Position numbers and translations under genes: made by a program. The notes under the pieces were generated by a model, which was not told where the DNA came from, searched no databases, and saw nothing but the letters and a program-made list of their open reading frames with translations. Shown here piece after piece: positions 17,164-23,415 of a stretch of 64,000 nucleotides of DNA. This DNA comes from Bacteroidota bacterium (GTDB lineage Bacteria > Bacteroidota > Ignavibacteria > UBA10030 > UBA8401). Position 1 is the stretch's first letter. Each line of letters begins with the position of its first letter. The DNA lies in the NCBI GenBank assembly GCA_030679145.1, contig JAUXTU010000036.1, positions 150,480-214,479 on the forward strand, given 5' to 3'.

Positions 17164-17384
17164 AATTTTTTATTGCAAGATACAACGAACCGCAACGGTG
17201 TTACAACCGAAAAATTGACAGGGAATTTTTGATGTAAACGATAGTCTCTAATTAAAGTAAAAACGATAATAATTTGTATTAAATATAAGAAATTATGGCA
17301 ATTGCGATAGGGGGTTAAAAAAGGTATATTTTAAGAGGATATATAGTTCCATCTTTTTTTAATTTTTGATTATTATTTTGTGAT

Positions 17385-18266
17385 ATGTTTACTCGTAGAA
17401 AAATATTACTTGCAATTTTAGAAACAAGCGGTGGCGAATTAAACAATACCGATATGGAAAAGTTGTTGTTTGTTTACTGTAATGAATACAAGAAAAATCA
17501 CTTTGATTTCTTTCCATACAAGTTTGGTTGTTTTAGTTTTCTTTCCTACCAAGATAAACGGGTTTTGACACAGCAAGGATTTCTTGCGGATAGTGATAAT
17601 TTCAAATTAAAGAAACGACAAAACTATCTTAATATCGTTGAAGGAGACGAGCGAAAGAATATCGAAGAATTTGCTAAACGAAGAAAGAACCTTCGAGGGA
17701 AAAATCTTATTCGTTATGTTTATGTAAACTATCCTTATTTTGCAATTCGTAGTGAAATAAAAGAAGAAATACTTCAGTCAAACGAACTTGATGCTGTAAA
17801 ATCTTCGATGAATAGTGATACAAGTATTTGTTTGATGACTATTGGGTATGAAGGACTTACGATAGATTCCTATATCAATAAACTAATCCAGAATAACGTA
17901 GCTCTTGTTGTTGATGTGCGGAGAAATCCTCTTTCGATGAAATATGGATTCAGTAAAACACGCTTCCGGAATTACCTTGAACGTGCAGGGATACGATATG
18001 AACATATTCCAGCATTGGGCATAGAATCATCTCAGAGAAAAAACCTTGAAACCGAGAAAGATTACAAAGCTCTTTTCAAAAAATATAAATCTCAATCGCT
18101 CCCAAAATGCCACGAAGAATTGGACCGAATTGAAAACCTCGTAATGATACATCGTCGTGTTGCATTAACCTGCTTTGAAGCTGAGGCTCATTCGTGTCAC
18201 CGCCATAAAATTATTGAATATCTTCAATCTGATAGGAACTGGAGTATTCAGATCAAACATATCTAG
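17385..18266 (+). CDS. DUF488 protein with a SocA/Panacea-like N-terminal extension
   Basis: This is a 293-residue protein. Residues 150-293 are a DUF488 domain: TIGYEGLTIDSYINKL (152-167), VVDVRRNPLSMKYGFSKT (175-192), YEHIPALGI, and ALTCFEAEAHSCHRHKI with C263, C271 and H272. Residues 1-120 look like the DUF4065 (SocA/Panacea) fold: ILLAILETSGGELNNTDMEK, LLFVYCNEY, then FFPYKFGCFSF. That assignment is inference from pattern only. DUF488 has no settled biochemistry, though its Cys/His/Arg pattern suggests nucleic-acid or nucleotide chemistry. It is the first gene of an AT-rich block that ends in Shedu, and the next gene follows after 19 bases. Confidence 0.78.
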   Translation: MFTRRKILLAILETSGGELNNTDMEKLLFVYCNEYKKNHFDFFPYKFGCFSFLSYQDKRVLTQQGFLADSDNFKLKKRQNYLNIVEGDERKNIEEFAKRRKNLRGKNLIRYVYVNYPYFAIRSEIKEEILQSNELDAVKSSMNSDTSICLMTIGYEGLTIDSYINKLIQNNVALVVDVRRNPLSMKYGFSKTRFRNYLERAGIRYEHIPALGIESSQRKNLETEKDYKALFKKYKSQSLPKCHEELDRIENLVMIHRRVALTCFEAEAHSCHRHKIIEYLQSDRNWSIQIKHI

Positions 18267-18285
18267 CACCTTCTAATGGGGACTT

Positions 18286-19137
18286 ATGGAATATCTTCCG
18301 GAGATTATTGAAAATGCAAAAGTCCTCATTACAGTAAAAACTTACCCCCTTCCTTCAAACAAGTACGAAGAGCTTGTCTGTACTGCAGGCGTTCTTGAAG
18401 ATGGCAGATGGATTCGTATTTACCCTATCCCATTCCGATCTCTTCCAAACGATAAAAAATTTGGAAAATACCAATGGATTCAACTTGATCTTATTCGCAA
18501 TAAAAAAGATTTCAGACCGGAAAGCTATCGACCAAAATCCGATGCTTCTAGTATTCAAATCCTAGATAAAGTGGGAACAGAACATGAGTGGGCTGAGAGG
18601 AAAAAATTTGTTTTGCGGGATGTATTTACCTCATTCAAAGATCTGATTGAACTTGCAAAAAGTGATACTCAAAAATCGCTTGCTACGTTCCGCCCAAGAG
18701 AAATTGTTGAATTTATTATAGAAGACGATAAGCGGACTTGGAAAGAACAGTGGATTGCTAACTATGAACAATATGGATTATTTGATATAGATGAAAAAGG
18801 GGAAGGAGTTCTTCGAAAGATTGTTGATAAGATTCCATATAAATACTCTTATCGATTTTTCTGTGAAGGAGAAACTAAGCCTCGCACACTGATGATTGAA
18901 GATTGGGAAATTGGTGCTCTCTACTGGAATTGTTTGAAACAGGTCGATGGAGATGAAACCAAAGCAAACGAGCTTGTCAGTAAAAAATACTTTGAAGAAT
19001 TCTTAAATAAAAAAGATCTTCATCTTTTTGTAGGAACGACCAAGCAGTATCACAATGTTGCTCCTAACCCATTCGTTATTATTGGTGTGTTTTATCCGCC
19101 AACACGGAAAGATATAGGACAGGTAGAACTTTTTTGA
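18286..19137 (+). CDS. Conserved unknown protein, possibly a dual-OB-type protein, paired with DUF488
   Basis: The 283-residue protein has no signal peptide. The most striking stretch is LVCTAGVLEDGRWIRIYPIP followed by FRSL (residues 30-53), and further on FFCEGETKPRTLMIEDWEIG near 200-225. I recall this kind of start in conserved proteins encoded beside DUF488, some named dual OB-domain proteins, but I cannot confirm a family from sequence alone. An OB fold would imply nucleic-acid binding. Spacing to the DUF488 gene is 19 bases, so co-expression is likely. The gene is clearly intact. Confidence 0.7.
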   Translation: MEYLPEIIENAKVLITVKTYPLPSNKYEELVCTAGVLEDGRWIRIYPIPFRSLPNDKKFGKYQWIQLDLIRNKKDFRPESYRPKSDASSIQILDKVGTEHEWAERKKFVLRDVFTSFKDLIELAKSDTQKSLATFRPREIVEFIIEDDKRTWKEQWIANYEQYGLFDIDEKGEGVLRKIVDKIPYKYSYRFFCEGETKPRTLMIEDWEIGALYWNCLKQVDGDETKANELVSKKYFEEFLNKKDLHLFVGTTKQYHNVAPNPFVIIGVFYPPTRKDIGQVELF

Positions 19138-19181
19138 AAGATTGACAGAGTTTTAGGATTTTTTTTGCTCAAGAGATTTTT

Positions 19182-20855
19182 ATGAACAATGAATTTATTT
19201 TATATGACCGAATTGTCAATGGAAATTTAAGACCTCATTTGGAGCGATTCAGTACTCCTGTTGGACTTAAAGAATTAGAAAAGGAGTTTTATTCCAAAAC
19301 AATTATTATCCAAAATGATAATATTGGGTCTCTATTTGATGAGTTTATAAACGATTTTCATGGGATTAAAGATGGTGACAAATTAGAGATAGAAATAAGT
19401 GATGACGATGCAACCCCACAAATAGTTCTTCGACCCATTCTGAATTCTGAAGAAGAATCCCTTATAAATATTGACATCCCACCACCACCAAATGAAAAAG
19501 CAGAAATATTTCTGAGAATAATTGAAAATGAATACAATAGAATCGAAACATCACTTACAAAAAATCTTACTTCCTTAAATAATGAAAACGATATAAAAAT
19601 CTACGGATTGAAAAATATTCAAATCGCAAAAAAGATCGCACGTGATTCACATTTGCTCGGGAAAAAGATAGAGAAAATAGGGGTTGAGAGTTGGGATAAC
19701 CCTAACACATATATTATTTATGTTCTAAAAAAACACCTGATATATTCATTGTTAATAATGCAAAATATTTATTGTCCTTTAATCGGACAAAAGATTCAAA
19801 CCGAAGGTGAATTGGAAGATGAGCTGTTTGATTGTCAACACTCAATAGCTATTAGTAAAGCAGCATCATTGAGTGATTTTATAAATGTCAGACATATTGA
19901 AAAGCTCTATAATGAAATTGCTAAAAGTGCAACATTAGAAGAAAAAATAAATTTATTTAAAAATAAAGTGATTGAACAAATGCAATCAATCACTAAAAAA
20001 TCGAAATCTAAATATGGCGTTGTAAAATTCGAATATGATTTGAAGAAACTGTACCAAAAAGAATTAGGAAAACTCCTTTCCGAGTATTATTATCGAAAAC
20101 TTATTTCGGAATCAAAAGAAATAGGAATTGTAAAAAAATATGAACAAATAATCAAAACAATTACAAAATTAAAAATAAATCATGCAAGTATAGAGGGGCA
20201 AGCATTAGAAAGTTCTGATTTTTTTTCTAAAATGGAATTGGAAAAAGAATTGCTAAAAGAATTAATGGATATATCACTTTCGATACCTAAACCAGAAAAT
20301 ATTTGTAAAGATTTAATTTCGCTCTTAGTGGTAATGCAAACAAGAAAACATTCTTTCCGCAATGAAAATCAGTTGAACGATTATCTATGTGATTTACTTA
20401 GGGTTAAAGGATATTATGTTGCCGATCAATCTAGAAGTGGTCGTTCTGGATCAGATAATGTTGAAAATTATGAAAGCGGGGAACTTGATATTTCAATTAG
20501 AGACATCACAAATAACGGCGTTATTAAAACAATAATTGAATCGCTTGAAATAGATTCCTGTGGTGATGGAAATAATGTGATTAAGTCTCATATTGGCAAA
20601 TTATTAAGCAGATATGACACAGCTGGTAACGAGGAGAATTACGTTATTGTTTATTCAAAAGCATCAGATTTTAATGCTCTTTGGATAAAATATAAAAATC
20701 ACATTGATCGATTTATTTTTCAGGGTGTAAAAAATGTTGAAGATATTGAAGTTGAACAAATATCAAAGTCAAATATAAAAGTGGGGAAGAGCTATATAGA
20801 GAAAGAAGGGAAACAATTGAAATTATACCATCTTTTTGTAGACATGAAAAAATAA
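19182..20855 (+). CDS. Unknown 557-residue protein with nuclease-like C-terminal region
   Basis: The protein is largely helical and very lysine-, isoleucine- and asparagine-rich, matching the strong AT content of its gene. Residues about 385-510 resemble the PD-(D/E)XK fold: a leading helix ENQLNDYLCDLLRVKGYYVA, then ESGELDISIRD with D436, then TIIESLEID with E453. The expected lysine of ExK is replaced (E453-S-L-E456), so catalysis by the standard mechanism is uncertain. I do not recognise residues 1-380. It starts 44 bases after the preceding gene and ends 24 bases before Shedu, all on one strand. Confidence 0.65.
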   Translation: MNNEFILYDRIVNGNLRPHLERFSTPVGLKELEKEFYSKTIIIQNDNIGSLFDEFINDFHGIKDGDKLEIEISDDDATPQIVLRPILNSEEESLINIDIPPPPNEKAEIFLRIIENEYNRIETSLTKNLTSLNNENDIKIYGLKNIQIAKKIARDSHLLGKKIEKIGVESWDNPNTYIIYVLKKHLIYSLLIMQNIYCPLIGQKIQTEGELEDELFDCQHSIAISKAASLSDFINVRHIEKLYNEIAKSATLEEKINLFKNKVIEQMQSITKKSKSKYGVVKFEYDLKKLYQKELGKLLSEYYYRKLISESKEIGIVKKYEQIIKTITKLKINHASIEGQALESSDFFSKMELEKELLKELMDISLSIPKPENICKDLISLLVVMQTRKHSFRNENQLNDYLCDLLRVKGYYVADQSRSGRSGSDNVENYESGELDISIRDITNNGVIKTIIESLEIDSCGDGNNVIKSHIGKLLSRYDTAGNEENYVIVYSKASDFNALWIKYKNHIDRFIFQGVKNVEDIEVEQISKSNIKVGKSYIEKEGKQLKLYHLFVDMKK

Positions 20856-20879
20856 CCATATCTATCTTAATCATACTTA

Positions 20880-22028
20880 ATGAAAATGGATCAAACTATA
20901 AAAACAAAATCAACTTCTTCTAATACAGCGCTTGGTGAAGAAATATTACTGCGAGAGTCCAGCAAATCTAGGCTCGTCTTTAAGCCGTTGTTAGTGAAAA
21001 ATCTTAAGAATCCACAACATTGCATTAAAGGTGAATTCACTTTTCAAGTTAAGAAACCATCGGGAATTTGGGAAGACTATAAAACGCTTAACCTGAATAA
21101 AATGAAAGATCAAGAATGGATAAAGTTGTCGTTGCATTCAGAGGAAATCTTCAATCTTATAACCACGCTTGACAAGTATTATGGTATTTTCCAAAAATAT
21201 GGTATCCGACAAGGACAGAATGAGTTCTTTATAACAGATAAAAATGTTCGTCCTCTTTTAGACCAAATATTATCTAACAAAGATAATTTTCGTAAACTAC
21301 TTGCTGCTGGCGGTGCAGAAATTCTTGATAAACTCTTTGCTTGGATGTCAGCTACGCAGGATTCTGGGCTAATTGTTGACAAACTTCAAAAACTAAATAT
21401 TGATAATCTTAAAAAAATCAACTCTCTAATAGGTGTTAGTAACCTACGGAAAGTTTTATCTATTTGGGATCAAAATAAAAATAACAGTGATGAGGAATTT
21501 TGGCAAAGAACACTGAAGGAACATACATGGGTGATATCACAAGTTTTTTCTCATCCAGTTGTCATTCTTCAGCAAAAAGCCTATGTGGGTGGAAAGGTGA
21601 TCGATAACACTAAAGGTAATGTTGTCGATTTTCTATTTAAAAACAAACTTACATCAAATGTAGTATTAATTGAGATTAAAACTCCTTTGACTAAGCTAAT
21701 GGGGGCACAATATAGACAAAACACATTTGCAGTATCGCAAGAACTCACAGGTCCTATTAACCAGGTATTAACTTACAAAGATGAACTTCAAAAGAGTTTT
21801 TATAATCTTGCGGATAAAACTAATTCAAGATACCATTCTTTTAATCCTCAGTGCTTAGTAATAGCTGGTTGTTTTTCAAGTGAATCATTGAATGATATAG
21901 GGAAAAGATCTTTCGAACTTTTTCGAACTGACTTAAAAAATGTAGAAATAATCACATTCGACGAACTGTTTGAAAAAATTAATCTCTTGGTATTACTTCT
22001 TGAAAACGACAATATGTCAAGTAACTGA
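20880..22028 (+). CDS. sduA: Shedu anti-phage nuclease (SduA, DUF4263)
   Basis: The 382-residue protein has a C-terminal DUF4263 domain from about residue 205. It contains DEEFWQRTLKEHTWVISQVF, then NVVDFLF (D250), VVLIEIKTP (E265, K267) and TGPINQVLTYKDEL (Q295). This gives a complete PD-(D/E)XK core and the Shedu-specific glutamine helix. Shedu is a known single-gene defence system in which the protein cuts nucleic acid on infection. Residues 1-200 are a family-variable sensing region. An alternative ATG lies two codons downstream. It is the last gene of the AT-rich block, followed by a perfect hairpin. Confidence 0.88.
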   Translation: MKMDQTIKTKSTSSNTALGEEILLRESSKSRLVFKPLLVKNLKNPQHCIKGEFTFQVKKPSGIWEDYKTLNLNKMKDQEWIKLSLHSEEIFNLITTLDKYYGIFQKYGIRQGQNEFFITDKNVRPLLDQILSNKDNFRKLLAAGGAEILDKLFAWMSATQDSGLIVDKLQKLNIDNLKKINSLIGVSNLRKVLSIWDQNKNNSDEEFWQRTLKEHTWVISQVFSHPVVILQQKAYVGGKVIDNTKGNVVDFLFKNKLTSNVVLIEIKTPLTKLMGAQYRQNTFAVSQELTGPINQVLTYKDELQKSFYNLADKTNSRYHSFNPQCLVIAGCFSSESLNDIGKRSFELFRTDLKNVEIITFDELFEKINLLVLLLENDNMSSN

Positions 22029-22070
22029 TGTTTGTTTTCTAATTAGCGTTGTTTTCTTTTGGTAAGTACC

Positions 22071-22098
22071 ACCATTTTGTTGTTACCAACAAAATGGT
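22071..22098. terminator. Perfect hairpin after the Shedu gene
   Basis: ACCATTTTGTTG (22071-22082) and CAACAAAATGGT (22087-22098) form a perfect 12-bp stem with a 4-base loop between the convergent Shedu and DUF885 genes. There is no strong T run, so termination is likely but not certain. Confidence 0.6.
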
Positions 22099-22107
22099 CT
22101 ATTAAAA

Positions 22108-23415
22108 TTATTTCAATCCACCCGGCAATCTCGGCGATGAGATCAAATCAGTAAATACTTTCCATCGTTTTTCTGCGGTCGGATTTTTCCCCGCCTTCTT
22201 CTCAACATATTGTCTTACCAAATCTTGTCCGAGATTATAATTGATGATGTAACTGCGGTATTTGTCAACGAACTTAATCCGTTGTTCGGCGCGGGCAGAA
22301 TCAAACAACGCATATGTTGTCAACCAGCGCATTGTTTCATCTTTGGAAAATTTGCCGTCAAGATGTCCACGCGCCGCTTCGTTTCCTGCGTAGACAAGCT
22401 CCTCAACGAGTGATAGTATTGTATAGTATTGCTCAACTTGGGTTGTATCAAGTCCGGCAAGCGGGAAGAGAACTTCTTTTTCAAATTTCATCCGCTCTTT
22501 GGATGGAAGGACAACATCAATTCCGAAATTTGCACTTCCTTCGGCGATCAGCGACTGCGGACTGAAGAGAGGATAAACGGAAAATTCGATCCATCCTTTT
22601 TTCTTTAACAATTCGGATTCGAGAAGAACATTGTACACATGGTGCCCAGGATATCCTTCATGCGCGGCAAGATCTATTGCACGGTCAATGAAGATCGGAA
22701 GATCGGTATTTACTTGAATAATACTGTGTGCATTTCCTTGGTACCAATTATATCCGCTCCACGCTTTATTGGTCACGTATTCAACAACAAAACTTTCGTT
22801 CTCCGGAAGAGTGATGAATTGTTTTGTCCGTGCGCGGCATTCACTGATTGCACGCGTAAAGACTGTATCAAGTTTTTCTTTTGGAATAATGAATTGATTT
22901 CTGAACCGCAAGTACCGTTCTTGTATTGTTCCCTCACCTGAGGGAAGTGATTTTTCAAGATCTTTCAATATTGCCAAAAAATATCTCTCGGAATTCTTCG
23001 GTGGCTGCACATCGTACAGTTTCTTCGCTTCTATATCGAATGAATATTTTGTTCCTGAAAGCATTTCGAGCTTTGTATATGCGGCAGAAAGCTGTTTCTG
23101 CAGATATGTCTTGCGAAGCGCAGATGATTGGTCTTTCCTTGGAACACGAACCCGTTTTAAGCGATTCGAAATTGCATCAGCCCGATCTTTTAAAGCCGTT
23201 AGTTCATATTTCATTTTCTTTGCAGCTTCTTGCCATTCTTTTGGTCCATAATATGCATCCACAAAATCGGGATCGTGCTGACCGATATCGAGGATCAAGC
23301 GAACGTATTGTTGTGCAATGTCATTCATAGTAATTGCTTTTCTTTGTGCCGAAGCAGTGTTGAAAAAAATGAATGTGAGAAACAAGAGTATTGATACGGC
23401 GTTGATATGCTTCAT
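22108..23415 (-). CDS. Secreted DUF885 metallohydrolase-like protein
   Basis: The 435-residue protein has signal peptide MKHINAVSILLFLTFIFFNT ending near ASA. It contains AAHEGYPGHHVYNVLL, the hallmark HEGYPGHH zinc site of DUF885, and later IAEGSANFGIDVVL, which supplies the likely third ligand. DUF885 proteins are related to thermolysin-like or carboxypeptidase-type metallopeptidases, but substrates are mostly unknown. The gene stands alone between the defence block and a repeat-bearing gap. Confidence 0.82.
   Translation of the reverse strand: MKHINAVSILLFLTFIFFNTASAQRKAITMNDIAQQYVRLILDIGQHDPDFVDAYYGPKEWQEAAKKMKYELTALKDRADAISNRLKRVRVPRKDQSSALRKTYLQKQLSAAYTKLEMLSGTKYSFDIEAKKLYDVQPPKNSERYFLAILKDLEKSLPSGEGTIQERYLRFRNQFIIPKEKLDTVFTRAISECRARTKQFITLPENESFVVEYVTNKAWSGYNWYQGNAHSIIQVNTDLPIFIDRAIDLAAHEGYPGHHVYNVLLESELLKKKGWIEFSVYPLFSPQSLIAEGSANFGIDVVLPSKERMKFEKEVLFPLAGLDTTQVEQYYTILSLVEELVYAGNEAARGHLDGKFSKDETMRWLTTYALFDSARAEQRIKFVDKYRSYIINYNLGQDLVRQYVEKKAGKNPTAEKRWKVFTDLISSPRLPGGLK

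Follow-up and report, generated by a model that had tools for sequence, protein, structure and literature searches.

An inserted four-gene block in a Bacteroidota genome probably combines three separate defense units: a PDC-M19 pair, a candidate sensor–effector gene and Shedu

We analyzed a 64,000-nucleotide window of a Bacteroidota genome (contig JAUXTU010000036.1, positions 150,480 to 214,479) and identified within it an inserted block of four genes that we consider likely to be a horizontally acquired mini defense cluster of three functionally separate, co-oriented units. The insertion, its gene content and the independence of its modules in relatives were observed directly and the fold of gene 2 comes from a model, whereas every activity is inferred. 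The units are a PDC-M19 pair predicted to consist of a Panacea-like/DUF488 enzyme and a tandem-OB nucleic-acid-binding partner (genes 1 and 2), a putative single-gene sensor–effector whose N-terminal half is its own and whose C-terminal domain is shared and probably nuclease-like (gene 3), and the stand-alone nuclease Shedu SduA (gene 4). The Shedu nuclease and the PDC-M19 pair as a catalogued candidate were already known; new here are the shared C-terminal domain of gene 3 and the composition and partnership of M19, and one vague block becomes three testable units.

The inserted segment spans 4879 bp (window positions 17229–22107) and is missing at the orthologous junction of ada and the right-flank gene in a genome of the same genus (G001, locus L098), where only 65 bp separate the two genes and both keep the order and orientation that they have in the window. 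Global alignment of the window with this locus leaves a single large gap at 17229–22107, and because a same-genus genome lacks exactly this stretch, the block is an insertion. The GC content of the insert is 32.1% compared to 39.9% for the window and 41.5–42.2% for the 10-kb flanks, making it the lowest-GC stretch of its length within the window. The empty site and the base composition bear out the first-pass annotation, which had described the block as more AT-rich than its neighbors and as inserted defense cargo ending in Shedu. The four open reading frames all lie on the + strand (17385–18266, 18286–19137, 19182–20855 and 20880–22028) with intergenic gaps of 19, 44 and 24 bp, exactly as first described, and their GC contents are 34.5%, 36.7%, 29.2% and 32.8%, respectively.

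Checks of open reading frames, Pfam matches and tRNAs found no transposase, integrase or tRNA with the insert, and no clear target duplication or recombinase accompanies it; in contrast to a known mobile element such as a transposon, integron or prophage, it has neither its own integrase or transposase nor a tRNA target. The perfect hairpin noted at the end of the block is present at 22071–22098, where gene 4 and the right-flank gene converge, and consists of 12-bp arms (22071–22082 and 22087–22098) around a 4-nt loop; it has no T run and was not called an intrinsic terminator by a terminator scan. On the left, the neighboring gene is Ada by Pfam, as annotated. The right-flank gene (22108–23415), annotated as DUF885, contains an HEGYPGHH motif yet has zero Pfam-A matches at E ≤ 1, and the DUF885 name was not confirmed. 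We also considered the insertion site as a defense hotspot and dropped this idea: other genus members show a tight junction or non-defense-looking sequence there, or a different local gene order, and we therefore claim no hotspot.

Genes 1 and 2 match the PADLOC candidate system PDC-M19, with both proteins full length and adjacent across the 19-bp gap. PDCs are "guilt by embedding" candidates, unvalidated for the most part (PMC12988326), and a literature search retrieved neither the name PDC-M19 nor a demonstration that the pair blocks phage. The statement that the first three genes have no known defense role accordingly holds only with a qualification, since genes 1 and 2 are a catalogued candidate, albeit of this mostly unvalidated class. 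Gene 1 (PDC-M19A; 17385–18266, + strand; 293 aa) matches the PADLOC model at 360 bits over residues 1–293 and was correctly named a DUF488 protein (Pfam, 89 bits), the DUF488 domain occupying residues 160–280. All conserved residues are intact, including G154-Y-E156, D177/R179, C263/E265 and C271-H-R273 (alignment A5). Twelve of 25 scanned M19A proteins match Pfam SocA_Panacea weakly (best E 1.4e-4), and gene 1 itself gives no match at E ≤ 1; as DUF488 fills residues 160–280, we place this match in the N-terminal ~140 residues, which carry an LQKLLFL...PYK.GC.S block. By sequence, gene 1 probably has a Panacea-like N-terminus fused to its DUF488 domain. Panacea is a promiscuous antitoxin domain, and like the PanAT toxin–antitoxin systems, M19 is a mobile two-gene locus with a probable Panacea-like domain (PMC8832971). 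In PanAT, Panacea is a separate antitoxin, whereas in M19 the Panacea-like part is fused to a candidate enzyme, and DUF488 is absent from the text of the PanAT paper.

The partner protein, gene 2 (PDC-M19B; 18286–19137, + strand; 283 aa; PADLOC 380 bits), yields an AlphaFold2 model with a pLDDT of 90. A Foldseek search with this model ranks CST, RPA, telomere-end-binding and HIN proteins on top (best E 3.5e-5) and also reveals a resemblance to viral LEF-3, and two gene 2 relatives weakly match Pfam DuOB (best E 0.0019). TM-scores over the full length reach only about 0.3, which a different placement of the two OB folds would explain. The model thus presents gene 2 as a tandem OB-fold protein similar to multi-OB proteins that bind single-stranded DNA. 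Searches of solved-structure sequences with gene 1 and with gene 2 returned nothing usable. The reading of PDC-M19 as Panacea-like plus DUF488 and tandem OB is that of the present analysis, and gives an unvalidated candidate a concrete composition: a probable Panacea-like–DUF488 enzyme and a predicted tandem-OB partner.

We examined the distribution of M19 and found that gene 2 is a near-constant partner of gene 1. M19B is present in 21 of 297 same-phylum genomes, and a full M19A of 288–299 residues lies directly upstream in 15 of the 16 loci opened; none of these 15 loci contains a match to gene 3 or SduA. Restriction-modification genes adjoin or enclose the pair in 10 of the 15, which answers positively, for genes 1 and 2, the suggestion that the block's genes be checked for linkage to defense loci. 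The neighboring systems are type IIG (L033, L035 and L040), type III (L038 and L043), type I (L034, L042 and L045, plus L039 by similarity) and MTase_II (L046), and in L042 and L045 the pair stands beside HsdR in a same-strand gene run that includes other type I subunits. The same restriction-modification proteins used as BLAST queries matched none of eight flank loci and none of 16 X-domain loci (described below), a small control rather than a statistical test. The present locus keeps both proteins full length and adjacent, and differs in having gene 3 and Shedu as neighbors where most relatives have a restriction-modification operon.

M19 also extends to mobile elements, with M19B matches on 23 plasmids, the pair in seven records of temperate phages of Gordonia, where it adjoins the repressor, and on conjugative and archaeal plasmids, and M19 on 57 IMG/VR viral contigs. 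A DUF488 gene is adjacent to M19B in at least 46 of the 57 viral contigs, upstream in tandem in 27, downstream in tandem in one and convergent, mostly with short overlaps, in 18; among the remaining contigs, four end within the locus and another four have no M19B ORF called. The M19 partners thus stay together over restriction operons, plasmids and phages in differing gene arrangements, and because the partnership survives rearrangement between tandem and convergent order, the sequence comparison argues for a functional pair. At the convergent phage-contig loci (L133, L135–L140, L142–L145, L147–L149, L152, L153, L155 and L156), the DUF488 gene is short and its 3′ end mostly overlaps that of M19B by 10–56 bp. 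On the Sulfolobus plasmid pSOG1 (L031:3930–5858), a ParB–DUF488 fusion lies directly upstream of M19B, and CTP binding has been reported for an archaeal DUF488-containing ParB fusion in a 2025 PNAS paper (PMC12704722). An internal stop interrupts M19B in three genomes (L034, L045 and L017), with M19A intact in the two checked.

We tentatively propose a mechanism in which single-stranded or damaged DNA is recognized by the OB protein, which in turn governs a DUF488 enzyme kept in check by a Panacea-like part. Gene 2 would bind the DNA and bring in or release the DUF488 enzyme, the Panacea-like part of gene 1 would hold that enzyme inactive, and the pair would form a toxin–antitoxin-like back-up that, beside restriction-modification systems, acts when restriction fails or leaves breaks. 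The main rival is an RM-modulating or element-maintenance role, with M19 serving to maintain mobile elements, counter restriction or process DNA, and settling in defense islands without defending the host. The prevalence of the pair on phage contigs, beside the Gordonia repressor and on conjugative and archaeal plasmids fits such a unit, as does adjacency to restriction-modification genes, which is also compatible with a modulating or anti-restriction role. PADLOC nevertheless lists PDC-M19 as a defense candidate, and chromosomal restriction-modification operons of several types host the pair, including among the subunit genes in L042 and L045, a placement that would be unusual for an anti-restriction gene and speaks against that role. 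On balance we regard a purely non-defensive M19 as somewhat unlikely.

Gene 3 (19182–20855, + strand; 557 aa) has no significant library match, and its family is absent from Pfam, PADLOC, NCBIfam and PHROGs. Full-length relatives were found neither by tblastn against plasmids and phages, which returned matches to the C-terminal domain only, nor by pattern scans over genomes and viral contigs, nor among 60 relatives or 341 class genomes. In plasmids, the tblastn matches to the gene 3 C-terminus lie in proteins annotated as "small GTP-binding" and COR, and an alignment-based genome scan added 12 further proteins. The shared region, which we call the X domain, comprises residues 372–557 (20295–20852, + strand), and these last ~185 residues are 32–45% identical in the plasmid and genome proteins. 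The N-terminal half of gene 3 has nothing detectable in common with the other X proteins and is predicted at pLDDT <50.

Analysis of domain architecture places X at the C-terminal end in five different contexts: 925-residue LRR–Roc–COR proteins (L023, L053–L056 and L058, and L024 from Photobacterium), LRR proteins of 650–690 residues (L049–L051 and L059), a 338-residue protein paired with an AAA_15/OLD-like ATPase (L057), proteins of 1287–1348 residues (L060, beside MkoC and Avs4, L067 and L068), and a 514-residue protein (L066). In genome G323, an X fragment adjoins another SduA gene, and no X-domain locus contains M19. The bacterial LRR–Roc–COR (Roco) proteins carry a C-terminal X that is 36–41% identical to that of gene 3, whereas Pfam finds none of the LRR, Roc and COR regions in gene 3. 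As far as scanned, X has no entry in Pfam, PADLOC, NCBIfam or PHROGs; it connects a stand-alone candidate gene with bacterial Roco proteins and with genes adjoining Mokosh, Avs4 and Shedu.

Several of these loci have further features. The LRR–Roc–COR–X proteins of Spirosoma, Chryseobacterium and Hyunsoonleella (L023:3781–6558; L053–L056 and L058) have a constant length of 925 aa, and on a Photobacterium toruni plasmid (L024:5763–8501) the LRR–Roc–COR–X gene lies in a Tn7-type I-F CRISPR transposon between an HTH gene and tniQ. In Halanaerobium saccharolyticum (L060:6647–18394), a 1287-aa X protein is followed by an MkoC-like protein and a full Avs4; the MkoC-like protein matches its profile over positions 1–963 of 1136, with the last ~170 positions absent, and X may take the place of this missing end. 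In Pseudomonas argentinensis (L057:7909–10510), the gene for an OLD-like AAA_15 ATPase (530 aa, NsnB-like) overlaps that of the 338-aa X protein, which has no PADLOC model, and the two constitute a candidate two-gene system.

In X, alignments A3 and A6 show conservation of E395, D415-Q416, G433-E434-x-D436, E453, H470, K473 and Y478-D479, with E395, D415-Q416, D436, E453, H470 and K473 invariant or nearly so across the fusions. The model of X is mostly at pLDDT 80–90 and has an α-α-β-β-β-α-β-α order of helices and strands that fits the core of the PD-(D/E)XK superfamily. The predicted order of secondary-structure elements and the conserved acidic residues of X are compatible with this superfamily, from which X differs in missing the (D/E)xK lysine and a significant fold match: E453 is kept with no K at +2, and K473 is conserved in the helix that follows. 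A Foldseek search with the model of the complete gene 3 protein yielded nothing significant, the second-ranked HamA of Hachiman (E = 0.08) being a hint only, and a search of solved-structure sequences with X returned nothing usable. We conclude with moderate confidence, from the alignments and the predicted model, that X works like a nuclease, and describe it as a putative PD-(D/E)XK-like nuclease that we do not file in the superfamily because the fold search was not significant. A relationship to the SduA C-terminal domain was rejected (hhalign probability 0.3%).

The missing lysine two residues after E453, the non-significant fold match and the hhalign result would also suit a catalytically dead or binding domain. 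We think this somewhat unlikely, since E395, D436, E453 and H470/K473 are near-invariant across very different fusions, beyond the needs of a scaffold, and the strand–helix order is compatible with a PD-(D/E)XK core. For gene 3 itself, we propose that residues 1–370 would sense a phage trigger and the C-terminal effector would cut nucleic acid, a reading we hold to be about evenly balanced. A broader and more speculative proposal is that X represents an immune effector domain not described before, probably with nuclease function, which combines with sensors of many kinds, LRR–Roc–COR among them. If true, X-bearing bacterial Roco proteins, relatives of human LRRK2, would serve as immune receptors that sense phage and act through a nuclease; a literature search combining Roco and antiphage terms retrieved nothing relevant.

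The first-pass annotation treated the four genes as a candidate multi-gene module whose first three members might form a single system or extend Shedu, and neither reading is supported. An extended Shedu in which genes 1–3 act as sensors or regulators for an SduA effector would agree with the close packing, the common orientation, the gaps of 19–44 bp and the joint absence of all four genes from the sister genome. We consider it highly improbable: in 10 other genomes, the stretches examined around SduA relatives, up to about 7 kb on each side, contain none of M19, DUF488 and X, and the M19 pair occurs in 15 genomes and 57 viral contigs with no SduA or X domain in its loci. Only slightly less improbable is a system of three genes in which the M19 pair uses gene 3 as its nuclease effector. 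The shared strand and the 44-bp gap are in its favor, and X elsewhere (L057) is a separate effector-like protein beside an ATPase, but the X domain is found in none of the M19 loci examined and M19 in none of the X loci, and the GC content of gene 3 is clearly lower. For gene 3 against the M19 pair, the outcome that the annotation had named as refuting its reading, genes scattered and unlinked in relatives, was observed, with no full-length gene 3 relative found. Against independence, the tight same-strand packing and the lack of a clear internal promoter or terminator among the four genes fit one co-expressed operon too. We favor three separate units because the M19A–M19B pair recurs without gene 3 or SduA (15 loci), SduA occurs in 10 other genomes without genes 1–3 nearby, X is joined to unrelated N-termini, including LRR–Roc–COR, stands beside MkoC and Avs4 and beside an SduA gene, and is itself carried as cargo by a Tn7-type CRISPR transposon, and the GC content of gene 3 differs from that of genes 1 and 2.

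The third unit agrees with its first-pass identification as Shedu, a family of DNA-cleaving, stand-alone nucleases. Gene 4 (20880–22028, + strand; 382 aa) matches PADLOC SduA at 473 bits and Pfam SduA_N and SduA_C, aligns with PDB 8ti8 at E = 4.2e-95 over residues 7–375, and retains the catalytic residues D250, E265 and K267 (D...ExK), which are identical in 11 of 11 aligned proteins. By every sequence test gene 4 is an intact Shedu SduA, full length, with both N- and C-terminal domains and the size of the 8ti8 protein, and would cleave DNA as known for Shedu; nothing in the protein sets it apart, only its neighbors. At two other loci (L175 and L179), SduA sits inside a type I restriction operon, with an HsdR-like gene on one side and HsdS/HsdM-like genes on the other.
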